Source: a virus
Virus record (IMG/VR): IMGVR_UViG_3300035670_000113
Span: 1 to 64,000 of that record
Strand: one strand, 5' to 3'
Length of the DNA: 64,000 nucleotides
Below the pieces are notes generated by a model. It did not search any database, was not told where the DNA came from, and was given only the letters and a program-made list of their open reading frames with translations. Below are positions 17,125 to 42,555 of the stretch, piece by piece. Made by a program: the position numbers and the translations under genes. How positions within the stretch are numbered: the stretch's first letter is position 1; each line of letters opens with the position of its first letter.

Positions 17125-17423
17125 ATATATACGTATGTGAATATTTTGCGGATAATGCTACAGGGCATGTCACATTCGTATGTGAGGAAGACCATCTTCC
17201 TCACGTGTCATTTCATGGGCTTAAAATCATTACAGATAAAGTCCAAACAGATTTGTTTAGGAGATACAAAAACGAGCATAAAGATTGTCCAGACTCTCCG
17301 ATTGATGGAATTTACATCCTTTTTAAAGGGATCTCAGAGAGACCCTACGTGAAATTTCTTGTAATAATGGATACATTCTTTTACCATGAAATCGAAGGAG
17401 AAATATCATGCCATACTATCTAG
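17121..17423 (+). CDS. 100-aa hypothetical protein
   Basis: The start is set at ATG 17121 overlapping the previous stop (ATGA). It opens MNIYVCEYFADNATGHVTFV, then a His/Asp-containing soluble domain with ISERPYVKFLVIMDT. No motif decides a function. It overlaps the following gene by 16 bases. Confidence 0.45.
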   Translation: MNIYVCEYFADNATGHVTFVCEEDHLPHVSFHGLKIITDKVQTDLFRRYKNEHKDCPDSPIDGIYILFKGISERPYVKFLVIMDTFFYHEIEGEISCHTI

Positions 17424-18187
17424 AAAAAGAACCATATCTCCCAGACAGAATCAGGCACGGTTACTACGAGACTAAATGTGATGCATGCCAACAATACTTC
17501 TGTAGGAAGATCGACTCGATGAACTATATTGAGAAGTACCTGGATTTGATGTGCTGTCCTTGCTGTGGGTATGGAAATCGAGTACATAAAGAACGGGTAG
17601 AGGATAATAGTGCAGATGGTTATCAACCTCATGTCGAGGAGATCAAACCTGTCACATACGATGAAAAAGAATACAGCATGGGATTTGAGATAGAATTCTT
17701 TATTCCAGATCCAGTGAAAGATGTTGAATACATCTCCAGAGTTAGAAACCCAAAATACGACACTCTCGGATTTGATGGAGCGACACCCTTCATTAAAGAA
17801 TTCAGAAGTTTTCCTTGCTACTCTGATGACATTAGAACATTATTTGCTAAAGTCTCTCGTGAGTTGGACGAGACTGTACATGTAATCGAGGAATGTGGAG
17901 GTAAGTTGGCCCCCTATAAAATCTCTCTTTCAGGATTACTAACATTTGGAATCCATCTCTCGTTTGGAGGAGACCTTCTGGCTGGAACGTATGGTGATTA
18001 TATCCCTGAAGACACTATTTTGGGAGGTATTCTGGCACAGTTGAAAAAGAAAACTCCCTTCAGGATTGAAAGATATTTTGTTGATAAATTTCGATACCAT
18101 AGGGACAGGGTAGAGTTTAGAGGTTTTTCATCCTCTGAAAACTCAATTAAAATTATCACAGATTTCCTCAAGAATCCCTATTTATAG
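17408..18187 (+). CDS. amidoligase-like protein with N-terminal zinc ribbon
   Basis: The product is 259 aa. Residues 20-55 carry six Cys (24, 27, 49, 50, 52, 53) in a ribbon-like arrangement. Residues 90-240 show the amidoligase (glutamine-synthetase-like COOH-NH2 ligase) pattern: GFEIEF (92-97), Asp123, Glu131 and Arg133, GIHLSFGG (His183) and RVEFRGFSS (Arg234, Glu236, Arg238). This family joins carboxylates to amines with ATP. The SD is AAGGAGAAAT and it overlaps the preceding gene. The zinc ribbon may bind an RNA or peptide carrier; that is inferred. It is the first of three such enzymes in the operon. Confidence 0.6.
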   Translation: MPYYLEKEPYLPDRIRHGYYETKCDACQQYFCRKIDSMNYIEKYLDLMCCPCCGYGNRVHKERVEDNSADGYQPHVEEIKPVTYDEKEYSMGFEIEFFIPDPVKDVEYISRVRNPKYDTLGFDGATPFIKEFRSFPCYSDDIRTLFAKVSRELDETVHVIEECGGKLAPYKISLSGLLTFGIHLSFGGDLLAGTYGDYIPEDTILGGILAQLKKKTPFRIERYFVDKFRYHRDRVEFRGFSSSENSIKIITDFLKNPYL

Positions 18188-18201
18188 AAAGGAGAAATGC
18201 A

Positions 18202-18303
18202 ATGGACCAACTAACTGTAGTGGCACTTCTTGTTGTATTTTTTATTGCTGGAATGGCATGTGGAATGTCCCTTGCTCTGCTGGTAATGCATATGTACAGG
18301 TAG
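18202..18303 (+). CDS. 33-aa membrane micropeptide
   Basis: The ATG follows AAAGGAGAAATGCA. MDQLTVVALLVVFFIAGMAC is one long hydrophobic helix, then GMSLALLVMHMYR. It is a single-pass peptide with no known family. Confidence 0.45.
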   Translation: MDQLTVVALLVVFFIAGMACGMSLALLVMHMYR

Positions 18304-18420
18304 TTTCTATATATCTGGCGACACCTGCCACCAAATGAGGACTCTATATCACCGAGGGTTCGGATTCGATATACTGATCTGATGGAAAGTGGTGTGACTC
18401 TAAGGGAGAGACCTTGGCCT
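18304..18420 (+). ncRNA. structured spacer RNA upstream of tRNA-Arg
   Basis: There is no ORF. TATATC (18338) pairs with GATATA at 18368, and inside it CCGA-GGGT-TCGG forms a GGGT-loop hairpin; GGC/GCC and GACACC/GGTGTG pairings are available around it. It is part of the same transcript as the tRNA, either as its 5' leader or as a separate RNA. Confidence 0.4.
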
Positions 18421-18493
18421 GCCTCTCTAGCTCAATGGATAGAGCAACAGACTTCTAATCTGCAGGTTCAGGGTTCGAGTCCCTGGAGAGGTG
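18421..18493 (+). tRNA. tRNA-Arg (TCT)
   Basis: GCCTCTC/GAGAGGT acceptor, D-arm AGCTCAATGGATAGAGC, loop CTTCTAA gives anticodon TCT, T-arm GGG-TTCGAGT-CCC. It reads AGA, the dominant Arg codon here. One A-C mismatch at the top of the anticodon stem. Confidence 0.9.
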
Positions 18494-18577
18494 CTAAGGC
18501 TTGAGGGGTTGCCATCTGGAAAACCTGCTCGCAGTAAACAAGAGTAGGAAATTGCCAACTGGTACAAGTTACATGTA

Positions 18578-18675
18578 ATCTCAGTCGCACAATTGGTTAG
18601 TGCCGAGACTGTCCATAAGGTGGGCCAGTTTGAGCGGACATTCTTACCATGCTGGTTCGAGTCCAGCCTGAGATT
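18578..18675 (+). tRNA. tRNA-Asp-like gene with about 25-nt insertion beside the anticodon
   Basis: ATCTCAG/CTGAGAT acceptor and a canonical GCTGG-TTCGAGT-CCAGC T-arm frame a tRNA with D-arm GCAC-AATTGGTTA-GTGC. The region between D- and T-arm is 47 nt instead of about 23. Loop bases CTGTC give a GTC (Asp) anticodon at 18611-18613, followed by about 25 inserted bases before the 3' stem strand. The insertion can form a TGTCC/GGACA stem. It may be an intron-like or Y-RNA-like insertion, or a broken gene. A complete tRNA-Asp (GTC) exists at 46685. Confidence 0.45.
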
Positions 18676-18790
18676 ATAGACAGGTGGTAGGTATTGGGGT
18701 CGGGAATACTGAGCCAACACTCCCCGACTCATAAATAGAGTGTAGGCTCATTGCTGTAAGGAGTCACAAGTAACAACATACACTTTACTA
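18676..18790 (+). ncRNA. structured spacer RNA with pseudoknot potential
   Basis: TGAGCC-A-ACACTC pairs with GAGTGT-A-GGCTCA to give a 12-bp stem with one A.A mismatch. GTCGGG upstream pairs with CCCGAC in its loop, which would be a pseudoknot. Next, GTCAC-A-AGTAA and TTACT-A-GTGAC form a second long hairpin. No T-run follows. Confidence 0.45.
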
Positions 18791-18862
18791 GTGACAAAAA
18801 CACATCTCATCAATCACAGTATACCACCATCCAATATACCACCTGTCAAAAAAGGAGAAACC

Positions 18863-19360
18863 GTGAGTGCTAAACCTGTTACTATCATCCACCTGATCGA
18901 AGATATAAATGCTATGCCTAAGAGGATAGACATCCTGATGGAGTCTATCAAATCTGGGGCGTTTGAGTCCCCGATGACTGATGACATTCTGAGGCTGACA
19001 TCACTGATCGAGTCTCTTGGAAATTATAAGAATACCCTGGATACAGCAAACTCTACTATCACAGTAGAGTACAATGGCATTGTTTTAACTTTGTCAGAGG
19101 TCAGGCATCTCAGAGATTCTATGTTAAAGAAGAGTTCTGTTCTCGGCATGTTAGCCTCTTCGCAGAGGGAGAGAGAACGCAAGAATTTTGAAATTGGCTC
19201 AGATGGTGTACAGAGAACGGTGTACATAAAAGAGACATCCCAACTGGACTTTAAGAGGCTGAAAGCAGTGGCTGATGAGTGTGCTAAAGTGGCTAGAGAG
19301 TTGAACGAGTTACTTCAACAGACTAACTGGACCAAAAAAGTAGCCTTAATTGAAGCATAA
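18863..19360 (+). CDS. DIP1984-family (septicolysin-like) helical protein
   Basis: The start is taken as GTG 18863 behind AAAGGAGAAACC; an earlier GTG at 18791 has no site. The 165-aa product is an all-helical, charged protein: LIEDINAMPKRIDILMESI, a SLIESLGNYKNTLDTANSTI segment, TLSEVRHLRDSMLKK and the C-terminal LLQQTNW. That last signature and the R-D helix are typical of the DIP1984 (DUF6847) family, whose function is unsettled. It is transcribed from the accessory operon just after the RNA island. Confidence 0.6.
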   Translation: MSAKPVTIIHLIEDINAMPKRIDILMESIKSGAFESPMTDDILRLTSLIESLGNYKNTLDTANSTITVEYNGIVLTLSEVRHLRDSMLKKSSVLGMLASSQRERERKNFEIGSDGVQRTVYIKETSQLDFKRLKAVADECAKVARELNELLQQTNWTKKVALIEA

Positions 19361-19370
19361 GGAGATACAA

Positions 19371-19628
19371 ATGAAAACTGATAATACTGAAATTGAGGTT
19401 GGACAGAAGATGTATGCATGTGTAGAAGCTGGAACTACACTAAATCTACTTTTAGAAGACCTATCCTGTGGACATGTTGAGCTTTATCGAAATCCAGAGG
19501 ATGCTGTAGAATCCGAATCTATCTTAGAAGTAGGGAGGAATCTATTGAATCCAGAGGTTGTAGAGATGGAGATCACAAAAATACTGATTCCCCATGTTGA
19601 GACAAGAATCTCTTTTACAGACAAGTAG
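19371..19628 (+). CDS. 85-aa hypothetical protein
   Basis: The ATG 19371 follows AAGGAGATACAA; the longer frame from 19350 overlaps the previous gene. Acidic, soluble, with EVGQKMYACVEAGTTLNLL. No function recognised. Confidence 0.45.
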   Translation: MKTDNTEIEVGQKMYACVEAGTTLNLLLEDLSCGHVELYRNPEDAVESESILEVGRNLLNPEVVEMEITKILIPHVETRISFTDK

Positions 19629-19633
19629 AAAAA

Positions 19634-19909
19634 ATGAAAACTCGTGTAACTTTTACTGCACAGGAGTACAGAGAAATTGTCAGGGTACTGGCAGGAGCCT
19701 GTGTGGTCAATCAAGAGTACATTAATGCAAATAGAAAAGAAGACTCAGATCATCCTATTGACAGGAAAAACTGTCCAGTAGCACAAAAAATGATCTTTAA
19801 TGGTCTCTTGTGGGCTCCTACTGAACTACTCTCTGATATTGAAAATGAAATTGGAAAGATGATGGGAGAGTTCAGGGCAGAAGTTTTGGATAACTCAGAT
19901 GACTTTTGA
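19634..19909 (+). CDS. 91-aa hypothetical protein
   Basis: Starts MKTRVTFTAQEYREIVRV. It has an early beta hairpin then helices, and a Cys pair (ACVV, NCPV). There is no recognised motif. Its stop lies 18 bp before the next start (ATG 19927). Confidence 0.45.
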   Translation: MKTRVTFTAQEYREIVRVLAGACVVNQEYINANRKEDSDHPIDRKNCPVAQKMIFNGLLWAPTELLSDIENEIGKMMGEFRAEVLDNSDDF

Positions 19910-19926
19910 TTGGAAAAGAGGATAAA

Positions 19927-20220
19927 ATGGATATTTCAGGCATATATGAAACAGACCTGGAAGTTGTGAGAGAAGCGGCAGTTAGATCAGTTATGCTAGA
20001 GCTTTCCAACGATACAGATCCCTGTCAGCATGATATGTTTACGTTCTGTCCCAGTGCTCTTTGTAGAGTCATATCGCTCTTCAATATTTATCCTATGGAT
20101 CTATACCAGAGAATTCTTGGTTATGTACCACTGGAAGAAATGCAATCTTTGGAGGAATACTGGAGGCACTTTATCAATCATCTTGTCAGAGATCCTAATG
20201 ATTTTCAAGTAAGAAATTAA
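19927..20220 (+). CDS. 97-aa hypothetical protein ending at an unusual in-frame stop
   Basis: ATG 19927 follows AGAGGATAAA. The product contains CQHDMFTFCPSALCRVI and is soluble. The TAA at 20218-20220 is followed, in the same frame, by 59 open codons to TAA 20400. See the separate entry for that stretch. The stop could be real with a decayed 3' exon, or it could be a nonsense change. Confidence 0.5.
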   Translation: MDISGIYETDLEVVREAAVRSVMLELSNDTDPCQHDMFTFCPSALCRVISLFNIYPMDLYQRILGYVPLEEMQSLEEYWRHFINHLVRDPNDFQVRN

Positions 20221-20400
20221 CAGTATTTCCATCCCAGAGTATTTGGAACGGTATCTATTTACAAATACACTAACTCGTATCTTACATTTGGTGAGGTAGA
20301 TGACCTGGATTACATCTCCTCAGGTACGTTCAGCAGTAAATTAAGGAGTGCAAAAAACTTATTGAGGGAGATTGCTAAGGAGAAAAGGAAAAATGATTAA
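20221..20400 (+). pseudogene. in-frame open extension after TAA, no start codon
   Basis: Fifty-nine codons immediately continue the frame of the preceding gene (QYFHPRVFGTVSIYK... then LREIAKEKRKND). There is no ATG or GTG start with a ribosome site. It overlaps the next ATG by 8 bases, as real operon genes do, so it was probably coding. Either the TAA is read through or it interrupts a longer gene. Confidence 0.35.
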
Positions 20401-20533
20401 TATCTTTTTCATGGTATATAGTATTTTAGCACGAGTTGCTGATAAAAAATACATTCTTATGTCTCTCAGATTCGCAAGTATTGAGCTACTTGCAGATCTC
20501 ATGCTAATTTTTGTACTTGTTAATATTAACTAA
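20393..20533 (+). CDS. 46-aa membrane micropeptide
   Basis: The ATG follows AAGGAGAAAAGGAAAA. MINIFFMVYSILARVADK, then a second hydrophobic stretch LADLMLIFVLVNI. Two short membrane helices, no family. Confidence 0.45.
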   Translation: MINIFFMVYSILARVADKKYILMSLRFASIELLADLMLIFVLVNIN

Positions 20534-20545
20534 AAAGGATATATC

Positions 20546-20734
20546 ATGCCTCTAAATACAGATACATTTAATGCTTTCTTGGATAAGTTTATGGAAACTC
20601 CTGGAGCTAAATTCCAGACTCTTTTTCAAGAGTTCTTTGGAAAAGTAGATGGGATCTCCACTGAAGAAGAATCCTTCAGTGATCTTGTGGAGATGATCAA
20701 GTGGTTCATAGAAAATTTGGAGGAAAAAATGTAA
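20546..20734 (+). CDS. 62-aa acidic hypothetical protein
   Basis: The ATG follows AAAAGGATATATC. Helical and acidic, with a Phe-rich FNAFLDKFMETPGAKFQTLF. No recognised function. Confidence 0.4.
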   Translation: MPLNTDTFNAFLDKFMETPGAKFQTLFQEFFGKVDGISTEEESFSDLVEMIKWFIENLEEKM

Positions 20735-20791
20735 AATTAAACCATAAAATAAAAACAAACCGATCAAACCAGACTCACTAAAAGGAGAAAA

Positions 20792-20968
20792 ATGAACAGA
20801 GAATATGAGGTTGCTTTCGTTTTACGTGGCAATATTGACATTGTCACAGAAAAGATCCAGGAGTTTCTTAAGAAACTCCATGCAGACGGGGTGATTGAAG
20901 AGGAAGTGGGATGTGTCTGCTTCCTTGACACTGAACTTGATGCTGAAATGGAGGCTGAAGATGCTTAA
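20792..20968 (+). CDS. 58-aa acidic hypothetical protein
   Basis: The ATG is behind AAAGGAGAAAA. MNREYEVAFVLRGNIDIV, then a helical middle and an acidic tail EMEAEDA. Overlaps the next gene by 8 bases. Confidence 0.45.
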   Translation: MNREYEVAFVLRGNIDIVTEKIQEFLKKLHADGVIEEEVGCVCFLDTELDAEMEAEDA

Positions 20969-21215
20969 TATCCCCAATAATGGAAAGGATCTCGCAAGCT
21001 TCTTTAAGAAGAGGGGTGCAAGTACCTCTCCAGGGCCTGGAGGTACTACAAAGATCAGTGTAGGAAACTCCCACATGGTTGTTTCCAGCACATCAAAACA
21101 GCTGGATAAGGGAACTCTCCACCGAGTGATCAAATGGGCAAAAGCAGTCGGTCTACTGGTGGTCCTCATCATGTTGAAAGATCCATTGATGAACCTCTTG
21201 ACATCCCTAATGTAG
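20961..21215 (+). CDS. 84-aa protein with C-terminal membrane helix
   Basis: ATG 20961 sits behind GAGGCTGA; the longer frame lies inside the previous gene. A basic, Gly/Ser-rich N-terminal half is followed by a C-terminal hydrophobic segment AVGLLVVLIMLKDPLMNLL. Could be a membrane-tethered accessory protein. Confidence 0.45.
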   Translation: MLNIPNNGKDLASFFKKRGASTSPGPGGTTKISVGNSHMVVSSTSKQLDKGTLHRVIKWAKAVGLLVVLIMLKDPLMNLLTSLM

Positions 21216-21220
21216 TGACA

Positions 21221-21254
21221 GAGGGAGGGGAGTTATTTTTAACTCACCTCCCTC
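21221..21254 (+). repeat. long G-rich hairpin between membrane-protein genes
   Basis: GAGGGAGGGGAGTT pairs with AACTCACCTCCCTC with one mismatch, loop ATTTTT. Together with 10079, 12680 and 12844 it forms a set of GGGAGGG hairpins in this phage. Confidence 0.65.
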
Positions 21255-21266
21255 AAAGGAGAAAAA

Positions 21267-21440
21267 ATGATCAAGCACTATCAAGGAAAAGATGTGACTT
21301 TTACATCTGAGGGTACAATTGAATCTGGAAAAAGAATCGAGTATGATTTTTCTGGAAAACTTACTCTGGAGGAGATCATTATCAGAGTGGTTATCTGGGT
21401 CACTCCCATCGTCATTATGGTGATGCTATGGAAAATCTAG
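21267..21440 (+). CDS. 57-aa membrane-anchored protein
   Basis: The ATG follows CAAAGGAGAAAAA. A 35-residue polar N-terminal part is followed by IIIRVVIWVTPIVIMVMLW, one membrane helix at the C-terminus. No family. Overlaps the next start. Confidence 0.45.
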   Translation: MIKHYQGKDVTFTSEGTIESGKRIEYDFSGKLTLEEIIIRVVIWVTPIVIMVMLWKI

Positions 21441-21733
21441 ATCTAGTTTCATGGTATTTAGATATATTCCATAAAGCATATGGATATGGGACTACTCAGA
21501 ATATCTTTCTTTGGTTTTCAGCAGTACATGCTATCAATCTTGTACTGCTGATTCTCCAAACCTTGCTAAACAGGCTTAATAAAAGCCTGTTTCCTCTGAG
21601 TGCTACTATGAAGAATCTCCAATTTTGGGGATTCTTCATGGCAACTGTATGGTTTATTCTAATTGTTGTCTCAGCATATTTTTGGATATGGTGGGATTCC
21701 GTGCTATGCAATTCAGGAGTATACTGCAAATGA
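21428..21733 (+). CDS. 101-aa membrane protein
   Basis: Starts inside the previous gene. Hydrophobic segments AVHAINLVLLILQTLL and FFMATVWFILIVVSAYFW give two to three membrane spans. Ends with VLCNSGVYCK. Unknown function; part of the membrane-peptide group at 20.4-21.9 kb. Confidence 0.45.
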   Translation: MENLDLVSWYLDIFHKAYGYGTTQNIFLWFSAVHAINLVLLILQTLLNRLNKSLFPLSATMKNLQFWGFFMATVWFILIVVSAYFWIWWDSVLCNSGVYCK

Positions 21734-21849
21734 TCACTATTCTTGTTATAGTCATAGGAGTTCCTCTCATTGTATTGGTATTAAATGATATTCTCGATGG
21801 ACGATTTAAAGGAATATCATTTAAAGAGAAGAAAGATGAGGACAAATGA
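21730..21849 (+). CDS. 39-aa membrane micropeptide
   Basis: ATG 21730 overlaps the preceding TGA. MITILVIVIGVPLIVLVLND is a membrane helix, followed by a charged tail FKEKKDEDK. Coupled to the next gene through a four-base overlap. Confidence 0.4.
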   Translation: MITILVIVIGVPLIVLVLNDILDGRFKGISFKEKKDEDK

Positions 21850-22568
21850 AAATTTTGGACAGAGATACGTATATGGGTGATCACCCTATTTTTGTGTGTC
21901 TAAGCTCTGGGATTATTTTTCCAGCATATCTCTGTAGATACATGGTGATACAAAATAGTACTGGAGAGAGGCTGGGAAGAGTCTTTAGGGGTAAGGAGTT
22001 TTCAAGATTAAAAGTATATGGAGATCTCTTCTATTCGATGAGAAACTCAAATAGAATACATATATCATTAGAAAATAGAGATACTCCTAGTGATATTCCA
22101 CATTATCTATGGAATACATGGAGTAAAAATGTAGCTGATACTGAAAAAAAGCTTAATTTGATGCAGAAACTCCGCTTTTTTCGAGATAATAAAGATACCG
22201 TAAGGATTCTTAAAGAGACCACAAATTTAGAGTCTTTAATAAAAAAAGTGGCAATGTTTGCTCAGTACAAGGGATCTATAAACGAAACAGAAAAAACTCC
22301 TCCAGGTCACAGGAGATCAAGTCAGGATATATATAGGCACATAAGGAGTATTAGAGATGATATACCCCTGAGGGAAGTTATGAGAGTCCTGGCTAATAGT
22401 ACATTAATGCGGAACTACTGCAGTGATGTTGAGAGACTAGTATTCCATCATAACCACTATATGTTACTTAGGGAGCATATTGACTGTTTTGATGAGTTTG
22501 GGGGATTCATCAAAATGTGGGGGTACAAAAAGTTCAGAAAAAATATATTTATGGAGGAAGAAAAATGA
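21846..22568 (+). CDS. 240-aa protein of a three-copy paralogue family (copy 1)
   Basis: It shares with the third copy the RRSSQDIYRH and V-E-R-L-V-F segments, but lacks the short N-terminal M-R-x-I-x-D-L opening of the other two. It is rich in Arg/Lys/His; no catalytic signature is recognised. It precedes the two longer copies in the same coupled string, overlapping the next by 4 bases. A nucleic-acid-binding role is conceivable, not shown. Confidence 0.5.
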   Translation: MKILDRDTYMGDHPIFVCLSSGIIFPAYLCRYMVIQNSTGERLGRVFRGKEFSRLKVYGDLFYSMRNSNRIHISLENRDTPSDIPHYLWNTWSKNVADTEKKLNLMQKLRFFRDNKDTVRILKETTNLESLIKKVAMFAQYKGSINETEKTPPGHRRSSQDIYRHIRSIRDDIPLREVMRVLANSTLMRNYCSDVERLVFHHNHYMLLREHIDCFDEFGGFIKMWGYKKFRKNIFMEEEK

Positions 22569-23407
22569 GACAAATAAAAGATCTCGTAAATGTTTCAGAT
22601 GGAGAAGCGGTCATAGCACTTATAAGAGATTCTCTTCTCCTTGCAATAGTATCAAAGGAGCCTGGAGGATTCTATTTATGCCAGGATTACAGGAGTGGCA
22701 TGCCCAGTAGACATAAAAAGGGTATGATGTATTCTTGGTGTGTGGGAGATGGGAGTGAGTATGCACTAAATCGAAATGAGGTTAAGGTGTTTTATGCTGG
22801 ATCTCCAGAGAGTATTAGTAATGAATCTTTAGATTTTGACAGTTTAAACGCTTTGAAGAGTTCCTTTCTCATGTGGAAAAAGAATATGAACAAAATAGAG
22901 GTACATGCAAGGAAATCTCCAATGTTCTTCTTGGCGGATGTACAAGAGAAATTTGAACGAGTAATGAGATCAGATATATCACTGAAAGCAAAAATTGTTG
23001 CTACTATAAACTTCATGCGCTACGGAGTATGTACTGAGAGTTTATCAGGATACTATACAGGCGTAAGGAAGTATGAATTTGATATATCCTTCCTGTATAG
23101 GATCATGGTCACAGTGGATCATGGATTATCTATCATGGATATTATCAAGAATCTTTACAGATTAGATATATCTATGAATGATGGAGACTATGTGGCCCCT
23201 CTGCTAAAGAGGGTATATGAATTCCTTAGAGATGGCACAAGTTTTAGAGAACAACATTTTTGGAAAATGTTGTGTGAGGATACTCTAAGTATTCCTAGTG
23301 GACCTGCTCTATTTGATCTAATCAGAAGTTTAATAAAAAGTCCGGTCGTTGACTATCTAGAACAGTCACGAGAAAGACTTATGACATTAAAAAAAGGAGC
23401 GAAGTGA
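22565..23407 (+). CDS. 280-aa paralogue family (copy 2)
   Basis: The start is ATG 22565 (MRQIKDLVNVSDGEAV) behind GAGGAAGA. The first 100 residues align with copy 3 (L-A-I-V, Y-x-L-C-Q-D/N) and then continue with a helical middle and C-terminal SREQHFWKML-like helices. The stop at 23407 shares a base with the next ATG. No family recognised. Confidence 0.5.
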   Translation: MRQIKDLVNVSDGEAVIALIRDSLLLAIVSKEPGGFYLCQDYRSGMPSRHKKGMMYSWCVGDGSEYALNRNEVKVFYAGSPESISNESLDFDSLNALKSSFLMWKKNMNKIEVHARKSPMFFLADVQEKFERVMRSDISLKAKIVATINFMRYGVCTESLSGYYTGVRKYEFDISFLYRIMVTVDHGLSIMDIIKNLYRLDISMNDGDYVAPLLKRVYEFLRDGTSFREQHFWKMLCEDTLSIPSGPALFDLIRSLIKSPVVDYLEQSRERLMTLKKGAK

Positions 23408-24375
23408 TGAGAAAAATCCAAGATCTAATTTCCACAAGAAGTGGAGATATTGTTGTGTGTAGTATCTTCAGTAATCTTGGGCTTGCAATCGTTGAAAGAT
23501 CTCCGGAAAACACTAATGCTCATTACCATCTATGCCAAAATATGGTTAGTGGTAATAGACCAGAAAATTTACATGGCATGAATTTTGGGTGGTCAGTTGC
23601 ATATGGAAATGCTTCTAACCTCAGATCCAATTCTACTGTAGTATATTATGTAGTTGATAAAAAGGACTCTTTGGAGAAGATTCTAAGATCTATGGACTTG
23701 TTAAAAGAAGAGCGTGATAAAGAATATCCAGATGTTTTGAGACTATTCAAAAAATGGAAAATTGAGGTTGCCAGAATGGGAGAACATTGGAAAAGAAAAG
23801 GTCATCTCTATTTGCCAGATAAACAACAAAGACTCTTAAAAAGGGTCTGCGAAACGGATTTAACACTTAAATCAAAAGTGTATATGTGTTTATACCTAAC
23901 AAGAGAATTTGGGTCATGGGATATTCCAGAAAAGATCTTCTCATCTAATGATAAAGTACACACTACACCTGCCAGAAGGAGATCTTCTGGAGATATTTAC
24001 AGGCATCTCCTTTCTGTTATGGAAGTGAAACTGGAGGATGTAATTGAGGCAATGTATGGTATTTTAGGGAAAAAAGTATTTGCATCAATCCATCCTTCCT
24101 TTAGAATAACCTGTTCGTTCTGCTCAACTGTTAAAAGGATGGTATTTTATGGTCACATGTCACCAAGTATTCCTACTAAGGGAGTTGATGAGTACAGAGG
24201 AAGCTTACTTTACTGGAAAATAGTAAACTGGACCAATGAGGATGAGATTTACTCATACCTGTTAAAGAATGGAGCTCCAGGAGCATGTAATGATGGTAAC
24301 CCACTAAAATCAATGAGAAATATGATTGAATTATCATACAACTATATCAGAGAAATGGAGAAAACAGCAAAATGA
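23407..24375 (+). CDS. 322-aa paralogue family (copy 3)
   Basis: Start ATG 23407; a GTG three bases earlier is alternative. N-terminus MRKIQDLISTRSGDIVV resembles copy 2. It also carries RRSSGDIYRHLLSV and CSTVKRMVFYGH that recall copy 1. The last gene before the ATP-grasp enzymes, overlapping the first one by four bases, so it may belong to the same biochemical module. Confidence 0.5.
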   Translation: MRKIQDLISTRSGDIVVCSIFSNLGLAIVERSPENTNAHYHLCQNMVSGNRPENLHGMNFGWSVAYGNASNLRSNSTVVYYVVDKKDSLEKILRSMDLLKEERDKEYPDVLRLFKKWKIEVARMGEHWKRKGHLYLPDKQQRLLKRVCETDLTLKSKVYMCLYLTREFGSWDIPEKIFSSNDKVHTTPARRRSSGDIYRHLLSVMEVKLEDVIEAMYGILGKKVFASIHPSFRITCSFCSTVKRMVFYGHMSPSIPTKGVDEYRGSLLYWKIVNWTNEDEIYSYLLKNGAPGACNDGNPLKSMRNMIELSYNYIREMEKTAK

Positions 24376-25250
24376 AGAAATTTCTAATACTTATCACTCC
24401 CCTGGGAAAGAAATATGCTGGGATGATCAGCAGATCCATTATTTTCCAGGCGAAGAGGGACGGAGAGGATGTCAAAGTTGACATCTCTACTCCAGGATGT
24501 AATATGGATGGATACTCGTGCATCCATCCCCGTACAGCCTCTCCAAAGGCTGCATGGCTGTCCAATGCTGAGAAACTCCAGACTTTTGGGGTACAAGTAA
24601 TTAACTCTCCTGCCACTGTAAGACTCACATCTGATAAGATGAGATGTTCTGATGTTCTCATCAGAGCGGGTGTATCTCATCCGGATAGTATCTCCTACAC
24701 AAAAGGAGATGTTGCATCTTTCGAGTCGGTACTGGAGTTGCTTAGGGGTGGTTTGGCAATTGCCAAACCTACAACTTCACTCTCTCAGGGACAGCATGTG
24801 ACAAAGTTTGATCTTCCCAATTCCTTTGATGAGTTTGAGAGGCTTGTAAATGGAGTTCCTGGAAAGCAAATTGTAGTACAAAGGTTTGTTCAGTACACAG
24901 GAATTCACAGAGTAATTGTAATTGGAGGAGTTCCAAAGAACTTTACTTTTGTTGACAGAGTTTCTTTCCATCCAGAACAGTGGAAGGTCTCGGTGTGTCT
25001 ATCCAAAACAAAGAGACTAGTTACTAATCCTCCAAAAGATCTTCTCGATGTTGCTGTAAAAGCACAGATGGCTGTCGGAGGTGACATCAATTTTATTGAT
25101 GTCTTTGAGACACCAGATGGTTATACCATGAGTGAGATTAATACAGCATGTTCTCTGATCAAGCACGAGAAAATGGCAAGAGAAGCCGGAGTAAGGGGGT
25201 GGAATATCCATGCCAGTATTGCAAAACTGTTGTTAAGAAAAACAGCTTAA
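24372..25250 (+). CDS. ATP-grasp ligase A (RimK-like)
   Basis: The product is 292 aa with an N-terminal pre-ATP-grasp domain (LILITPLGKKYAG) and ATP-grasp core: KMRCSDVLIRAGVSHP, AIAKPTTSLSQGQHV (nucleotide-binding lysine and Gly-rich loop), VVQRFVQYTGIHRVIVIGG and the metal-binding end FIDVFETPDGYTMSEINTA (Asp, Glu, Asn). ATP-grasp enzymes activate a carboxylate as acyl phosphate and join it to an amine or thiol. Substrate is unknown. It starts inside the stop of the paralogue gene and is 9 bp before ATP-grasp B. Confidence 0.8.
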   Translation: MKKFLILITPLGKKYAGMISRSIIFQAKRDGEDVKVDISTPGCNMDGYSCIHPRTASPKAAWLSNAEKLQTFGVQVINSPATVRLTSDKMRCSDVLIRAGVSHPDSISYTKGDVASFESVLELLRGGLAIAKPTTSLSQGQHVTKFDLPNSFDEFERLVNGVPGKQIVVQRFVQYTGIHRVIVIGGVPKNFTFVDRVSFHPEQWKVSVCLSKTKRLVTNPPKDLLDVAVKAQMAVGGDINFIDVFETPDGYTMSEINTACSLIKHEKMAREAGVRGWNIHASIAKLLLRKTA

Positions 25251-25259
25251 GGAGATAAA

Positions 25260-26003
25260 ATGTATACTATCCTGACAAATGTAAATTCTGTATTAAGAAA
25301 AACTGCCAATATCATGGCAGAAGAACTTGGACAAAAGTGGAGAGTGGTTACAAAGCTTTCTGATGGAGTTCCCCCCACTGTAAGATGGGGAACATCCAAA
25401 TCCTGGTTCCAGAAAGATACTGATCTCAACTCTCCATACTGTATAAATACTGCTGGAGTGAAAACGAAATTAGCTGAGGTATTGAGAAATGCTGGAATAT
25501 CTCACGTAGAATTTTTTAATGATACTCCAACGAGATATCCAGTAGTTGTAAGAAAAATGATCAATGTTGGTGGGGGTAGAGGTATCGTAATTGTTAAGAA
25601 TGAGAGTGAATTCCAGCAATATATTGGAAATACATTCTCATATTGGTATGACTTTCAATTCGAGTTGGGAGTTCATGTACTGGATGGTAGAATTGCCAGA
25701 GTTTTTAAGAAGGTGTGGCCAGAAGAATTAACTCCCCAAGAGTTTCCAATCAGGAATACCCAACTTGGTTGGGAGTACAGGTTAAGAAATATTGAAAAAT
25801 ACAAAAAACTCCCACAATTTGTGAGTGGTATTTACAGTGTATTCCCAATAAGGATGTGTAGAATGGATATTGGATGGGATGATACCAATAAAACATACAG
25901 ACTTATTGAGATTAATTCTGCTCCAGATCTGTCTAATAACAGCAACACCAGAGAACTGTACACTAATTTTATTAAGGAGGTGGTAAATGCCATCACCAAT
26001 TAA
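25260..26003 (+). CDS. ATP-grasp ligase B
   Basis: The product is 247 aa. YPVVVRKMINVGGGRGIVIV provides the ATP-binding lysine and Gly-loop, FQFELGVHVLDGRIARVFKK the central sheet, and MDIGWDDTNKTYRLIEINSA the Mg ligands (Asp, Glu, Asn). It is shorter than A and divergent from it. The distal part overlaps the amidoligase start by 17 bases, so translation is coupled. A second ATP-grasp next to an amidoligase suggests two sequential ligations. Substrate unknown. Confidence 0.8.
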   Translation: MYTILTNVNSVLRKTANIMAEELGQKWRVVTKLSDGVPPTVRWGTSKSWFQKDTDLNSPYCINTAGVKTKLAEVLRNAGISHVEFFNDTPTRYPVVVRKMINVGGGRGIVIVKNESEFQQYIGNTFSYWYDFQFELGVHVLDGRIARVFKKVWPEELTPQEFPIRNTQLGWEYRLRNIEKYKKLPQFVSGIYSVFPIRMCRMDIGWDDTNKTYRLIEINSAPDLSNNSNTRELYTNFIKEVVNAITN

Positions 26004-27102
26004 GGTTCTTGATTGGTTGGGAATAGAGCTGGAAACATCTATTCTTTCCAGAGAAGAACTGTCAAAACTTTTGCAGATTGGAATTGGAAAGAACCTGAAA
26101 GAATTTGTACAGGACATTCACAGAGATGCAAGTACAGAAAGTCCAATGTATGAGTTTTCCGGATTGAGATTACTAAGATCCCCGAATGAGGGAGATGTTA
26201 TATCCTTCATGGGAGATACCCTATATGGGCACAGCTCTGTTGTGGGAGGAGAGATTGTATCACAACCACTAACAGAGGAAGAGAAGAATGTATTTCTCCA
26301 CAGAATTATACCCCTTATTTCCAATAATGGGGTATCTGCTGATCCGAGGTCTGCTCTACATTTCCATGTTGGTTTTCCATACTACCATGAGAATATGGTA
26401 AAAGCCCTCATGGTAGCCAGGGTCGTTGATCCTGTCCTATTCAGAATTGCAGGAATGGGGGGTTTTTACAGAGGAGAGATAAACAGCAGTATATTTGCAA
26501 GACCTGTAGGTTCACCTCCAGCAGTAAAAGATATGGATAATAGATGGTGGAAAATGAACCCTCTGCGGGCCGTATCTTCAACTAATTTGGCAGACTTCTG
26601 GAAAATGTATGCGGGTATCTCAGATCTTGAGAGACCCGATAGAAGCTTTCCAATCAGGTATTCAAGTGTTAATCTTTTTTCAGTGCTCGCACACGGGACT
26701 CTGGAATACAGACATTTTAATAGTACAAATATTCCTGTATTTGCATCCAATGTTGGAGGCCTGTGTATGCTGATTACTAAGCTGATAGATAGACTCAGCA
26801 TACCTGAAATCAATAATCTGCCAGTTTTGCCTTATATCTTTAATGGTTTTCAGGATAAGGTATTGTTTGACTTGCTGGAGAATCTTATAAAGATGGCCAG
26901 GAGTAAGGGTATTAATACATGTGTGTCATTAGATGTAATAAAAAATATCTTTAAGGTCACACCGCACCCTGTAATACAAATGGGAGACTATAAAACTCAC
27001 TCCAAATACAAATTTAATTCCATGACACCTCAGAAATGTGGTTGGACTGAGTGTAGTCCTCTAGAATCTGGACACATTGATATTCATACATTTGGATTTT
27101 AA
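25987..27102 (+). CDS. amidoligase (Amidoligase_2-type)
   Basis: The product is 371 aa with a perfect AAGGAGG site inside the end of ATP-grasp B. It shows the amidoligase core: GIELET (12-17), ALHFHVGF (His125, His127) and RYSSVNL...HGTLEYRHFN (Asn229, Glu240, Arg242). The fold is that of glutamine-synthetase-like COOH-NH2 ligases, which use ATP to make an amide. It is flanked by ATP-grasp and glutamine amidotransferase genes, a classical arrangement for making isopeptide or amide bonds with ammonia or amines. Target not known. Confidence 0.75.
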   Translation: MPSPIKVLDWLGIELETSILSREELSKLLQIGIGKNLKEFVQDIHRDASTESPMYEFSGLRLLRSPNEGDVISFMGDTLYGHSSVVGGEIVSQPLTEEEKNVFLHRIIPLISNNGVSADPRSALHFHVGFPYYHENMVKALMVARVVDPVLFRIAGMGGFYRGEINSSIFARPVGSPPAVKDMDNRWWKMNPLRAVSSTNLADFWKMYAGISDLERPDRSFPIRYSSVNLFSVLAHGTLEYRHFNSTNIPVFASNVGGLCMLITKLIDRLSIPEINNLPVLPYIFNGFQDKVLFDLLENLIKMARSKGINTCVSLDVIKNIFKVTPHPVIQMGDYKTHSKYKFNSMTPQKCGWTECSPLESGHIDIHTFGF

Positions 27103-27114
27103 TTAGGAGACTAT

Positions 27115-28269
27115 ATGTGTAATCTAATATTCGCTAATTTGGGAGATACCAAGCTTAATATTGCTATAATTGAGATTATAGCATCCATCGGATCTTTGGC
27201 CAGACATGATGACGGGTTTGGTATTTTTTCTCCGGCAACGGGGCTATGGAAAACTGAGCAATCTGCTCATCTGTATAATAAACTGGGAAAAAATGTCTTT
27301 GATATGTTTAATGGTGTTCCAACAGATGGTGGTGTAATGGGACATATTAGAGCAGCATCTCCAAACATTCCCGTAACAGTTGAAAATGCTCACCCATTCG
27401 ATGGAGAGAGATTTGTTCTAGCCCACAATGGGAGGCTATATACGAAAGATGATAAAACACCGGTCGTAGCCAGTGATGAGTCTACAGGTTCTGACTCTTT
27501 GATGTTTCTACACAGGCTGGAAAAGATACCTCTAAAAAAGAATGTATGGAATGGGCTTGTTGATACCATGAGAGAATTTAGAGGTACATTTGCATTTCTA
27601 ATCTATGACAAAAGTAGTGAGGAATTTTACGCAGCAAGAGGTAAGAATAAAAAACTATTTATAGCATTTATTGGAGATAGATATGTGATCACGACAGAAG
27701 AAAATAATCTAAAATTCTCTGTAAATCTTCTGATAAACATGTCCCAAATACTGGGAAAGGATCTCTCAGATGAGACTGTAGATATACAAGAAATTCCAGA
27801 AAACTCTATTCATAGATTGGATAAGAATAGCATTGTACATGTTTCAAAGATTCAGGAGACCGAAGATCCAGTGGTGCAACGGCCTATTACTGTAGGCACA
27901 AAATCTGTGAGTGGAATGAAGGGAATACTGTGGGAAGATCCTGTATCCATTAGTAAGTGGGCTAAAGGTCAAGGTCTACTGCCCAGAGATATGGATGTGA
28001 TATGGAAAGTATTATTTGGACATGGTATTCTCGCTGCAGAGATGTGGGAGATGGACAAATTTATTAACAAAGTAATTCCAAAAATATCTGCGGATAAACG
28101 TGCATTAAAGTTTTGTCATAAACTCAGAATGTTGCCTTTTTACAGGTATTACTACATGAGACACGTATCCAAGAATGAAAAATCTGAATTTCCCTGGAAT
28201 TTGTGGACTCTAAATGAACTAAGAGAGTTCGCAGATAAAGAGGAAAAATCCAAGAAAGTTGGAGACTGA
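27115..28269 (+). CDS. class II glutamine amidotransferase
   Basis: The product is 384 aa. Met is followed by Cys2 (MCNLIFANLGD), the N-terminal nucleophile, once Met is removed. GVMGHIRAASP, ENAHPF and LAHNGRLY are the Ntn-hydrolase active-site motifs. The C-terminal 120 residues, rich in Trp/Met/Lys, are not a synthase domain I recognise. It frees ammonia from glutamine, likely for the neighbouring amide ligases. Its start follows AGGAGACTAT. Confidence 0.85.
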   Translation: MCNLIFANLGDTKLNIAIIEIIASIGSLARHDDGFGIFSPATGLWKTEQSAHLYNKLGKNVFDMFNGVPTDGGVMGHIRAASPNIPVTVENAHPFDGERFVLAHNGRLYTKDDKTPVVASDESTGSDSLMFLHRLEKIPLKKNVWNGLVDTMREFRGTFAFLIYDKSSEEFYAARGKNKKLFIAFIGDRYVITTEENNLKFSVNLLINMSQILGKDLSDETVDIQEIPENSIHRLDKNSIVHVSKIQETEDPVVQRPITVGTKSVSGMKGILWEDPVSISKWAKGQGLLPRDMDVIWKVLFGHGILAAEMWEMDKFINKVIPKISADKRALKFCHKLRMLPFYRYYYMRHVSKNEKSEFPWNLWTLNELREFADKEEKSKKVGD

Positions 28270-28270
28270 A

Positions 28271-29053
28271 ATGTATTTTATCGGACAGAGTAGGATAATG
28301 AATGAGCTGTCAGTACTCCTAAAACAGCTGTATAGCTCAAGATCTGGAACTAATATCCTAATCAGAGGACCATCTGGTTGGGGAAAGACACGTATGGCTC
28401 TCGGTATATGTAACTATTTGTCAGGGAGAGATTTCTACATGGCAGTAGGAAGCTACGCTCGAAATGATAAATGGGTACAGTTTATTGACGAGTGCCACCT
28501 AATAAATGATCCAGAATTCATGTATGAAGTTATGGACATGAAAAAGTATGTTATGATATTCTGTACCAATGATGCATCCATACTCAAGGAAGCATTTGTT
28601 AATAGGTGTACATATAGCTTCTATATGGAGCCATACACCGATGAAGAGCTATTTGAAATGGTAGGAAGATCACTGAGGATAAGACTTCTTCCTGAATCTA
28701 TTAAATATTTAATAGATTCAGGAGGTGGAAATCCAAGATTAATTCTAGGATTAGCATCCAGAATTAATACTCTACATGATGGAGGAGTCATAGAAAGTTT
28801 AAGTCATGAGGACTTTGTTAATATTCTCGATAAGTTTATGGGAATTAGGTATAGTTTAAGCCCTGCATGTACCAGGTACTTAAGTGTTCTTAGAGATATT
28901 GGAGGAACTGCATCACTGGATACAATGGCTTCAATGTTAAGAATGGATAAAAGCACGATAAGGTCTGAGATAGAGCCTGTATTACTGTACAAAAATTTGA
29001 TAACCATCTCCAGTAAAGGAAGGAAGATAAAAAATGACAACTACACTGACTAA
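28271..29053 (+). CDS. AAA+ ATPase (RuvB/clamp-loader-like)
   Basis: The start is ATG 28271 behind GGAG (a TTG at 28259 is the alternative). 260 aa: Walker A RGPSGWGKT (32-40), Walker B VQFIDECH (Asp73, Glu74), sensor 1 IFCTND and a C-terminal winged-helix-like part. This is the AAA+ layout of RuvB-like or loader proteins. It overlaps the next gene by 20 bases and sits in the ligase operon, where it may remodel or unfold a protein target. Role inferred. Confidence 0.8.
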   Translation: MYFIGQSRIMNELSVLLKQLYSSRSGTNILIRGPSGWGKTRMALGICNYLSGRDFYMAVGSYARNDKWVQFIDECHLINDPEFMYEVMDMKKYVMIFCTNDASILKEAFVNRCTYSFYMEPYTDEELFEMVGRSLRIRLLPESIKYLIDSGGGNPRLILGLASRINTLHDGGVIESLSHEDFVNILDKFMGIRYSLSPACTRYLSVLRDIGGTASLDTMASMLRMDKSTIRSEIEPVLLYKNLITISSKGRKIKNDNYTD

Positions 29054-29996
29054 AGTAGTGAGAACAAGTGACGATGTGTTTGTTTCCAGAACTCTTTATG
29101 AGTTCAAAGCAGATCTAGGAAAAGATGTTAAATTTTGCTATGTACCAGCTACAGACATTGTATTGATTAAAAGAACGTCTCAAACAAATATTGATGTATG
29201 TTTCCTGTATTGCATCCACCACAACCATGCTGATATCTGGACAAAACTGGATGGAGATAAAACTGTAACAAGAATTGCTCAGCTATCTGTCGGAAGTTAC
29301 GCATTTTACTCATTAAGAGATGAGAGGATCATTGATGATAATGACTTCTCAAGATTTATTCGTAAAGCAAAAATAAGTGATGAAAGGCCTCTGCTGGCAT
29401 ATATCATAAAGAGTTCACTAAACTCTGGTATTGACAAAGTATACTTTGTTACACCAACAATCAAAGAAACATACGAAAAATGTATTAGAATGACAGAATC
29501 TCGAAATTTCCTTATCGAAATTGCTATTACTGCTCCTGGACAGAGATTATTTGAAGCCCTCAATGTAGCATCAGGTGATTTTAATGAGTATGACGAGAAT
29601 GATCATGCTCCTGGAGGTGTTACTGCTGACTTGATGATACCTCAAGAGTCTAACATACCAGAATATTTGTCCTATAATAGATTATTAAAGATCAAAAAAC
29701 AAGTATTCCCAGACGCTACTGATAGAGAAGAAAGACCCCTTACTTTATCTGATGCTGTAGAATCTATTGGTATTAACGTTCTGCTGGACTCTCTATATCC
29801 AGATGACCGTGTAGAACTGGAAATAGACATGATGGAGGACTTCTTTAAGAAGGTAACGCTGACGAAGTTTAACAACGGATCTGCCATGTGTGCAGTAACA
29901 TTACAAACACCATCTCATGGTAAGGAGGTATACGATAAAATAGAAAGTTCTCTAGGAACAGATCTTTTCTTCCTGCTTGAAGGAACGGATATTTAG
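29034..29996 (+). CDS. 320-aa protein, unknown function
   Basis: It starts inside the AAA+ gene. Soluble, with FCYVPATDIVLIKRTSQTN, a mixed alpha/beta region, an acidic insertion FNEYDENDHAPGG and a long C-terminal helix. No motif is recognised. Coupling to the AAA+ gene suggests it is its partner or substrate; this is inferred. Confidence 0.5.
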   Translation: MTTTLTKVVRTSDDVFVSRTLYEFKADLGKDVKFCYVPATDIVLIKRTSQTNIDVCFLYCIHHNHADIWTKLDGDKTVTRIAQLSVGSYAFYSLRDERIIDDNDFSRFIRKAKISDERPLLAYIIKSSLNSGIDKVYFVTPTIKETYEKCIRMTESRNFLIEIAITAPGQRLFEALNVASGDFNEYDENDHAPGGVTADLMIPQESNIPEYLSYNRLLKIKKQVFPDATDREERPLTLSDAVESIGINVLLDSLYPDDRVELEIDMMEDFFKKVTLTKFNNGSAMCAVTLQTPSHGKEVYDKIESSLGTDLFFLLEGTDI

Positions 29997-30013
29997 TTAG
30001 AGAGGAGATAAAA

Positions 30014-30394
30014 ATGCAAGTATTCTGTAGTAAGTGTAAGTGTCCTGTAAAGCTCACTGGAACAATTTCTACTGTTGCAACCATTGTTGGGATCTCTCCA
30101 ACCCCCAGTGGAATGGGTAAAATCACCCTGGGAGAGCGTGGAGAGTTCACCACCGCAGTTACATATAAGTGTTCATCGTGTGGACACAATGATACCATCA
30201 GTAACTCCTACGTGTGTTGCTCTCAGTGCGGAGATCAGTATGAGATCAAGGAGATGTATTGGTCTTATATCACAGGGACCACATGTAGTAAGTGTAAAAC
30301 ATCTGAGACCTTGATAAAAGACTACAGTGATATTCAATCATTCAGATGGCACAGAATGTCCACTATTCTTGGAAAAGGAGATACAAATGAGTAA
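30014..30394 (+). CDS. zinc-ribbon protein
   Basis: The product is 126 aa. Cys pairs CSKCKC (5-10), CSSCGH, CCSQCG and CSKCK give three to four zinc-binding knuckles across the protein. The ATG is behind AGAGGAGATAAAA. It overlaps the phiEco32-type amidoligase start by 8 bases. It probably binds nucleic acid or serves as a protein scaffold. Confidence 0.6.
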   Translation: MQVFCSKCKCPVKLTGTISTVATIVGISPTPSGMGKITLGERGEFTTAVTYKCSSCGHNDTISNSYVCCSQCGDQYEIKEMYWSYITGTTCSKCKTSETLIKDYSDIQSFRWHRMSTILGKGDTNE

Positions 30395-31256
30395 AAAACT
30401 TCTATATGGGGCAGATCCTGAGTACTTCGCTACTGAACCTGGAACAGACAATGTAATTCCTCCAATCTTCTTTAGAAAGTTTGCTGGAGCGTCTGTGGAG
30501 GTAGTGAATGGGGCTGAAAATCACCCTATCTTTTTTAAGAGGGGTAAGGCTTTTATCCACGAGGATGGAGCTGCATTTGAAATGAGTCTGCCTCCAAGAG
30601 AGAGATGGCAAGACCTTTGGGATGATATTCAAGATCTTAAAAATGCTTTTGATCTGTCAGCCTATCCTTTTGTAGAGCCCAAACTAAAGGCTCTGCCTAC
30701 TGCAACTTGGCAAGTAGAAAGATGGTTGGAGACTGGAGATGATGATTTCAAATTCTGTACAAGATTCGGATGTGACCGAGACGAAGATGCGTTCCTCATT
30801 GAAGAGGAGCAGGATGAAGAGGATGCGTCTCTGCACCCATTCAGATATGCAGGAGGACACGCTCACTTCTCAGGACTTGAGATCTTCGAGAGGAGACCTC
30901 TGGATGTTGTTAGAGGGCTGGCATTTACTGCAGGAATTTGTGCCATGCTGTACTCTGACACTCCTAAGGAGGATAAGCTCAGGGTGTACAGATATGGAAA
31001 ACCTGGAAAATTTCGTGTACAACATTACTCTAATGGGGCGGTTGGTATCGAGTACAGAACTCCATCCACTCGCTGGACGGATAACAAAGAACTTGCTCAA
31101 AAGATCTTTGAAGCAGCACAATATTGCTTCTATGAGCTTGTACCCTCTGGGAGGGTAGAAAGGATCTATAGTGATATGCGGGATACTCTAATTGCTGCAT
31201 TTAGAGGTATGAATAAATCGGTTCTATCTGATATTCTGAAGGAGGTTATGGTATGA
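30387..31256 (+). CDS. phiEco32-like amidoligase type 2 (PF14395-type)
   Basis: The product is 289 aa. GADPEYF (8-14), EDGAAFEM (Glu65), GGHAHFSG (His158, His160), VYRYGKPGKFR and GIEYRTPS (Glu222, Arg224) match the COOH-NH2 ligase family described from phage phiEco32. These glutamine-synthetase-like enzymes ligate carboxylate to amine. Start chosen at 30387, AAAGGAGATACAA; the earlier ATG at 30327 is inside the zinc-ribbon gene. It overlaps the class I amidotransferase gene by four bases. Confidence 0.85.
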   Translation: MSKKLLYGADPEYFATEPGTDNVIPPIFFRKFAGASVEVVNGAENHPIFFKRGKAFIHEDGAAFEMSLPPRERWQDLWDDIQDLKNAFDLSAYPFVEPKLKALPTATWQVERWLETGDDDFKFCTRFGCDRDEDAFLIEEEQDEEDASLHPFRYAGGHAHFSGLEIFERRPLDVVRGLAFTAGICAMLYSDTPKEDKLRVYRYGKPGKFRVQHYSNGAVGIEYRTPSTRWTDNKELAQKIFEAAQYCFYELVPSGRVERIYSDMRDTLIAAFRGMNKSVLSDILKEVMV

Positions 31257-31855
31257 ATGTCCTATTTGCAAGCAGAACTCTCTCTCAAGCGGTTGCTGAA
31301 AAACTCTCAAAACACAATATCTTCTTTTCTGAAAATAGAGATAGGAAAACCACATACGATCTCGTGATTTTTACAGGAGGTAGCGATATCCATCCAGAGG
31401 CTTATGGAGAACGTGTGAATGGAGCAGTCGGCTTTGACACTGATAGAGATAGTCATGAACTGGCACTTCTCCAAGATATCTATGGAGGATACATCAAGGT
31501 CAGGAAACTTCTAGGAATCTGTAGAGGTATGCAAATGTTACATGTCGCTAGAGGTGGTAGACTTATTCAACACATTCCAAACGCTCACAGGTCCTATCAT
31601 ACATTAAAGTGGCTGGAACATGGACCTCTTGATACCTTTGCTATGGTAAACTCTCTACATCATCAATGCATTATTCCGGATGGAAGACAGAGAGTTTTAG
31701 CTATGCATGAAGATGGAGATCCAGAGGCCACTTATTTTTCCTATAATGGAATTGAACAACTTGGAGTTCAATGGCATCCAGAGTGGATGACCAATGCAGA
31801 AGATTTCTTTGATATAATCATCAAATGGGTCAATGGAGGTACTATTGTAAAATGA
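31253..31855 (+). CDS. class I glutamine amidotransferase/peptidase C26-like
   Basis: The product is 200 aa. TGGSDIHP (41-48), GICRGMQ with nucleophile Cys90, NSLHHQ, and GVQWHPEW with His175 and Glu177 are complete for the peptidase C26/gamma-glutamyl hydrolase group. It could hydrolyse a gamma-glutamyl amide or supply ammonia. Its stop is followed by an 82-bp spacer and a new gene run. Operon position after amidoligase 2 is typical of such clusters. Confidence 0.85.
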   Translation: MNVLFASRTLSQAVAEKLSKHNIFFSENRDRKTTYDLVIFTGGSDIHPEAYGERVNGAVGFDTDRDSHELALLQDIYGGYIKVRKLLGICRGMQMLHVARGGRLIQHIPNAHRSYHTLKWLEHGPLDTFAMVNSLHHQCIIPDGRQRVLAMHEDGDPEATYFSYNGIEQLGVQWHPEWMTNAEDFFDIIIKWVNGGTIVK

Positions 31856-40717: not shown

Positions 40718-40833
40718 AAAAATTTTCTCCTTCCACAGTATGAGCATCTCCATCCGTGCCCGTGATTATAAAACCATACATAAGCTCTGCAAACAGAGCA
40801 ATACATCCATCTCTCTTTTACATTACTTGTCAT
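40708..40833 (-). CDS. 41-aa zinc-ribbon peptide
   Basis: ATG 40833. YCSVCRAYVWFYNHGHGW then RCSYCGRR: two CxxC pairs. Overlaps the stop of the methyltransferase by 4 bases and the following peptide. Confidence 0.5.
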   Translation of the reverse strand: MTSNVKERWMYCSVCRAYVWFYNHGHGWRCSYCGRRKFLCY

Positions 40834-41835: not shown

Positions 41836-41849
41836 AGAGAGGTAATAAT

Positions 41850-42080: not shown

Positions 42081-42083
42081 TAT

Positions 42084-42549: not shown

Positions 42550-42555
42550 GTTACT

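Follow-up and report, generated by a model that had tools for sequence, protein, structure and literature searches.

The stretch of DNA analysed here (the window), 64 kb of an IMG/VR virus contig with a total length of 87,182 bases, carries at positions 24372-31855 of its + strand a single nine-gene operon, with intergenic gaps of -20 to +17 bp, that is very probably an AAA+-bearing, lineage-specific variant of a known phage amide-ligase cassette. The five-enzyme core of this cassette has been described before and was recovered here from more than 130 additional loci; new is the sublineage in which a RuvB-family AAA+ ATPase, a protein at a shared position (X) and a stand-alone zinc-ribbon protein (Z) lie among the ligase genes. 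The same gene set was found in 14 other contigs when the gene order was sought in other phages, which is more than chance would give. We favour, with a probability of about 0.6, an explanation in which the cassette variant would run an amide-forming route on a precursor, with the ATPase, X and Z acting as a platform. The cassette occurs widely, with 338 relatives of the COOH-NH2 ligase found in a single IMG/VR scan, and the roles proposed for it span wall modification to nitrogen metabolism. Defined partners amenable to copurification, namely a RuvB-like ATPase and a separate zinc protein, offer an experimental handle on its target.

Gene content and active sites of the operon

The operon reads ag1-ag2-al-g2-AAA-X-Z-cn-C26 and comprises the following genes, given with the best evidence for each assignment:

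24372..25250, + strand: ag1, RimK-type ATP-grasp ligase, the second ATP-grasp (Pfam RimK, 4.4e-5)
25260..26003, + strand: ag2, core ATP-grasp ligase (phrog_2599, 1.7e-10)
25987..27102, + strand: al, Amidoligase_2-type ligase of the glutamine synthetase (GS) fold (phage amidoligase hidden Markov model, HMM, 1.6e-7)
27115..28269, + strand: g2, class II (Ntn) glutamine amidotransferase (GATase_6, 2.4e-10)
28271..29053, + strand: AAA, RuvB-family AAA+ ATPase, with its ATG at 28271 in an open reading frame (ORF) starting at 28259 (RuvB_C, 2.5e-12)
29034..29996, + strand: X, protein without assigned function (defined by position)
30014..30394, + strand: Z, stand-alone zinc-ribbon protein (alignment and leave-one-out HMM)
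30387..31256, + strand: cn, phiEco32-type COOH-NH2 ligase, with its ATG at 30387 (PF14395, 8.5e-8)
31253..31855, + strand: C26, probable PuuD-like gamma-glutamyl hydrolase (Peptidase_C26, 1.5e-26)

Profile matches and active-site residues together bear out the preliminary description of a real and tight amide-ligase operon related to that of phiEco32, including its ATP-grasp pair, its class II glutamine amidotransferase (GATase), its AAA+ protein and the phiEco32-type amidoligase at 30387, and catalytic residues are kept in all five core enzymes of the window (76-91 relatives compared per family). Ligases of both the ATP-grasp and the GS fold make amide bonds by way of an acyl-phosphate. The cn protein, which also matches phrog_3815 (1.2e-18), conserves its active-site columns G8/D10/E12, D60, E65, H158, H160, E222 and R224 across 91 sequences. 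The Amidoligase_2-type assignment of al likewise stands: weak in Pfam, where the match to PF12224 falls just under the cut-off (3.9e-4), it is firm against phage amidoligases and accompanied by retention of every invariant residue (E14, E16, D47, S49, E89, H125, H127, Y225, N229, E240 and R242); neither tblastn against GenBank phages nor a single-sequence viral scan recovered a relative of this gene. The core ATP-grasp ag2 matches an HMM built from seven phage ATP-grasps (3.8e-15) and conserves K68, K151, D203, E217 and N219, and its sole tblastn match among GenBank phages is Poriferisphaera phage ZRK32. The second ATP-grasp, ag1, keeps the Mg-site residues D243, E255 and N257 as well as K132; it has a homologue in locus L008 (41% identity, 8.6e-51) and was not found in 14 other clade or AAA-bearing records, so that among the clade records searched only the window and L008 possess it.

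Class II GATases free ammonia from glutamine, and g2 retains the residues that characterize them, namely the Cys2 nucleophile, R79, N105-G106 and D127. A C-terminal double CxxC motif, present in the GATases of 62 of the 77 ordinary cassettes compared, is found in none of 11 from the AAA-bearing lineage, the window included. The last gene of the operon had been taken for a class I GATase, a reading that gives way here, since its Pfam family is Peptidase_C26 and its closest solved relatives are Lin1909 (2e-14), SpuA-type enzymes and PuuD (3e-8); a C26/PuuD-like gamma-glutamyl hydrolase is thus more likely than a classical class I enzyme. PuuD-type C26 enzymes cleave gamma-glutamyl amides. The triad C90/H175/E177 is conserved over 76 sequences, and no GGCT was found at the window cassette, which has C26 instead. 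Two related loci have a cassette enzyme in duplicate: L009 encodes a further class II GATase (6075-6857) and L008 a further C26 hydrolase (2397-3002).

The AAA+-bearing lineage and its added genes

Cassette enzymes are found in annotated records of LUZ24, phiEco32, Zobellviridae, Aeromonas phage APT65 and others, and are also carried by UFV-P2 (PMC3890496). From the 338 confirmed cn relatives we retained 80 loci, 76 of them ordinary and four (L008-L011) much nearer to the window and sharing an AAA+ gene inside the cluster. In the ordinary loci, al (69), g2 (72), ag (66), C26 (65) and g1 (59 of the 76) lie mostly within 3 kb of cn, and 71 loci encode a gamma-glutamyl-cleaving enzyme, either C26 or GGCT. 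The g1 gene between the COOH-NH2 ligase and the amidoligase is common, not universal, in the family, and the window does not have it. Strict alternation of GGCT and C26 was considered and set aside, as the trend is weak (Fisher p=0.03) and 14 loci hold both. One ordinary cassette (L111, JAGWWT010000008.1) comes from a contig that binning assigned to a Patescibacteria metagenome-assembled genome. The window operon had been called unusually complete, a label that misses where its novelty lies: ordinary cassettes already have a COOH-NH2 ligase, an amidoligase, a class II GATase, an ATP-grasp and a gamma-glutamyl-cleaving enzyme. The unusual elements are the AAA+/X/zinc-ribbon set, by which the lineage is marked, and the second ATP-grasp.

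With further contigs from scans using the AAA profile and the clade cn profile, the AAA-type operon is present in 15 IMG/VR contigs (the window, L008, L009, L010, L011, L091, L092, L094, L095, L102, L117, L118, L120, L122 and L123), most commonly in the order al-g2-ag-AAA-X-Z-cn-C26, and in none of about 138 ordinary loci checked. A cn tree built from 91 sequences puts the first ten AAA-type phages on one side of a fully supported branch (100/100), and a quick tree of 66 sequences that includes the later members places the AAA-type phages together with L121 on one side of a branch (SH-aLRT, the Shimodaira-Hasegawa-like approximate likelihood ratio test, 85). The L121 operon has X- and Z-like genes and no AAA, and the grouping amounts to a single change for all these phages plus a loss in L121. 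Conversely, three contigs (L097, L098 and L100) carry AAA without ligases, beside a ribonucleotide reductase gene. In L100 (1097-5733) and L097 (9001-10759) the ATPase gene stands beside M42-peptidase-like genes and genes for C-terminal zinc-ribbon proteins with an SC(F/Y)(F/W)G motif, whose products are possibly the partners of the ATPase where the ligases are missing.

The ATPase itself combines an AAA+ core with a RuvB_C winged-helix C-terminus, and its clade profile matches the solved RuvB structure 3pfi at about 2e-27, skipping one stretch. Walker A, DExH, the sensor-1 asparagine, the NR and NPR motifs and the winged-helix signature are present in most or all of 12 AAA sequences. The skipped stretch is the presensor-1 beta-hairpin of RuvB: profile positions 88-97 flank chain residues 139-150, and Walker B and sensor 1 are separated by about 25 residues. 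This hairpin is the RuvA docking element, and the protein is accordingly RuvB-like, but not a canonical branch-migration RuvB. By tblastn the subfamily was not found in GenBank phages, where only distant RuvB-like genes (22-26% identity) were recovered.

The two other added genes differ in how well they hold together. A protein of 220-440 aa occupies the X position in nearly all AAA-type operons; sequence homology links X of L095 to that of L102 (1.6e-36) and, weakly, L010 to L011 (1e-3), and elsewhere X denotes a shared position alone. An AlphaFold model of X has a predicted local distance difference test (pLDDT) score of 33, too low to be of use. Z, by comparison, forms a real family, in which leave-one-out HMMs regain every member (E 7e-5 to 2e-13) and the aligned cysteines are C8, C53xxC56, C69xxC72 and C94. 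A LysW-type amino-group carrier was rejected as an identity for Z, because its C-terminal Glu is not conserved: the ten Z proteins end in E, I, I, P, K, M, K, V, E and F. A profile match between Z and the zinc finger of the GATase (E=0.001, with reversed and other zinc controls at E=0.004-0.026) is no more than suggestive of Z being that finger in detached form. Given the absence of the double CxxC from the lineage's GATases, this zinc element may have passed from the enzyme to a protein of its own.

A distal candidate amidoligase and neighbouring genes

The preliminary description placed three amidoligases in one operon. Two of them, at 25987 and 30387, are indeed there; the third candidate ends 6.2 kb upstream of it, separated by a tRNA-Arg gene and about a dozen ORFs, and finds no HMM support:

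17408..18187, + strand: al3, probable GS-fold amidoligase with N-terminal zinc ribbon, off the operon (L091 homologue, Foldseek)

Neither Pfam nor PHROG gives a significant match to this protein, a single-sequence viral scan found no relative, and profile-profile comparison with Amidoligase_2 and the COOH-NH2 ligase is not significant (E=0.035) by a method that barely links al to cn. A homologue (36% identical, E 2e-43) lies 3 kb upstream of the cassette of L091, the nearest relative of the window in the cn tree (100/96), and the two proteins share the zinc-ribbon cysteines and the motifs G(F/Y)EIEF, GFDG, KE(F/Y)RS, GIHxSFGG and RDRxE(F/Y)RG. The Amidoligase_2 motifs EIE, E(F/Y)R and RxE(F/Y)R are thereby represented, and HxH is missing from this core set, with a single His in GIHLSF / GIHISF; because the HxH has shrunk to one His, the protein is not a proven member of Amidoligase_2. 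The two-sequence AlphaFold model is of low confidence (predicted template-modelling score, pTM, 0.47), and Foldseek searches with it return phage amidoligases (0.97 for a named one), glutamine synthetases and YbdK in the PDB (0.84-0.93) and, at lower probability, unrelated aspartate kinase domains. Together with the L091 homologue, these structural matches, weak as they are, make 17408 a probable GS-fold ligase.

Elsewhere the window has the gene content of a phage, with tail, lysis, DNA polymerase, helicase and UvsX-like genes and 28 tRNA genes, and its 17-32 kb region has zero DNA-level matches in 50,697 GenBank phage records. Directly upstream of ag1, at 21846-24375, three consecutive genes encode paralogous proteins of 240-323 aa, two of which match each other at 8e-16; Pfam and PHROG assign them no function, and relatives are found near the cassette in L008, L010 and L091. 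The tRNA array at 41653-51657 holds 27 tRNA genes covering most amino acids and, in its last part (49728-51197), a gene for a DUF2828/DUF7788 protein that matches phrog_850, 'RNA-binding protein' (414 bits); a lone tRNA-Arg(tct) at 18421-18494, between 17408 and the operon, lies 23 kb off the array, where its anticodon is repeated at 47977. At 38232-39528 and 40830-41510 on the - strand lie two adjacent half-size DNA methyltransferase ORFs, both phrog_67, and, near them, a third methyltransferase-like ORF, and a SprT-like metalloprotease domain is encoded at 13832-14395 (4.8e-14). Two proposed partners of the operon are unsupported, as the papain-like candidate at 16714 has no Pfam match and the PrsW-like one at 15985 scores below the Pfam cut-off. 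A 'CRE'-motif neighbour family near 31938 could not be demonstrated.

Possible function and comparison with known systems

In the explanation that we favour, which goes beyond the gene content, linkage, residue conservation and lineage restriction seen in the sequences, the ATP-grasp and GS-fold ligases would join amino acids or amines, stepwise, to a carboxylate-bearing cytoplasmic precursor, the GATase would provide ammonia from glutamine, and the C26 enzyme would afterwards take off a gamma-glutamyl group or trim a host side chain. The likeliest substrate would be a precursor of the cell wall (peptidoglycan), whose alteration would make the infected cell resistant to other phages. We advance this target tentatively, following published reasoning on the core cassette, for which peptidoglycan modification against superinfection has been hypothesized (PMC5498523; similarly cited in PMC10580990); the speculation in the same two papers would also accommodate the earlier suggestion of an amide-linked modification on a protein of the phage or the wall. 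In this lineage the RuvB-like ATPase, X and the zinc-ribbon protein would form a platform, powered by ATP, on which the complex of enzymes and substrate is held or remodelled, a role that we regard as doubtful. Several points weigh against this explanation: a soluble wall precursor would not call for a winged-helix AAA+ ATPase of the DNA type; X fails the leave-one-out HMM test as a single family; the L121 operon implies that the ATPase is not strictly required; and the literature covered yielded no enzyme assay of any such cassette.

The ATPase, X and Z might instead be hitchhikers that share the locus but serve a separate function such as replication, as would fit the occurrence of the ATPase subfamily without the cassette, near ribonucleotide reductase and M42-peptidase-like genes, and of the L121 cassette without the ATPase. 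We consider this rather unlikely, since AAA is kept inside the ligase genes in 15 operons despite some shuffling and no ordinary cassette has it. Similarly modest odds attach to a macromolecular target different from the wall: a protein of phage or host (by RimK-like tagging) or a nucleoprotein would receive amino acids or peptides, and the RuvB-like ATPase would remodel this acceptor. The RimK- and phrog_2599-type ATP-grasps, the conserved winged helix of the ATPase and the zinc-ribbon protein all fit such a scheme, and linked ligases have been treated as protein-modification systems (PMC4431377), but no substrate protein has been identified and the best candidate, X, is too divergent for alignment. 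A motor-driven machine built of the ligases and AAA, X and Z that conjugates amide-linked amino acids onto a nucleoprotein or protein complex is a long shot; if true, it would be modification machinery of a previously undescribed type.

An auxiliary role in nitrogen metabolism, in which ammonia would be assimilated and glutamate or gamma-glutamyl amino acids made for phage growth, was put forward for the same core cassette in ZRK32 (PMC10945688), whose set is of the ordinary kind, cn-g1-al-g2-ag. The published growth effect, however, stems from the whole phage and not from these genes (PMC10945688). Hosts already possess glutamine synthetase, and this role leaves several ligases, a gamma-glutamyl hydrolase, an AAA+ protein and a zinc ribbon in one operon unexplained; we judge it improbable. 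Least credible is DNA hypermodification, the placing of an amino acid or amide on phage DNA bases with the RuvB-like ATPase acting on DNA. The RuvB family with its winged helix and the DNA-replication genes that border ordinary cassettes speak for it, yet no base hydroxylase, kinase or glycosylase was identified in the vicinity of the operon, DNA methyltransferases of ordinary types are encoded in the window as well, and a thymidylate-synthase-type gene occurs in just one of 14 clade records and ThyX in three, which argues against one common base-hypermodification route.

The cassettes of phiEco32 (gp77-86), LUZ24 (gp16-22), PSA-HP1 (ORFs 40-47) and Zobellviridae share with the window operon a co-oriented PF14395 COOH-NH2 ligase, Amidoligase_2, class II GATase, ATP-grasp and gamma-glutamyl-cleaving enzyme. 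Unlike the phiEco32/LUZ24 type, the window operon lacks g1 (phrog_4877/11055), adds the RuvB-like AAA+ protein, the stand-alone zinc ribbon and X, has a GATase devoid of the C-terminal double CxxC, employs C26 rather than GGCT, includes a second ATP-grasp and is ordered differently. The ZRK32 cassette (L110; PMC10945688) likewise comprises the same five core families, but in the ordinary layout and with no AAA+ found. The ATPase resembles the RuvB Holliday-junction motor in its AAA+ core and winged-helix C-terminal domain, whereas it is shorter (about 255 aa versus about 335), misses the hairpin and sits in an enzyme operon. Finally, the ligases belong to PF14395 and PF12224 and not to the PuuA family, and none of the Puu dehydrogenases was seen, but the pairing of a GS-fold ligase with a C26 gamma-glutamyl hydrolase recalls the Puu pathway, where the glutamate-putrescine ligase PuuA is matched by PuuD; by this functional analogy, a comparable ligate-then-deprotect logic is possible for the window operon.

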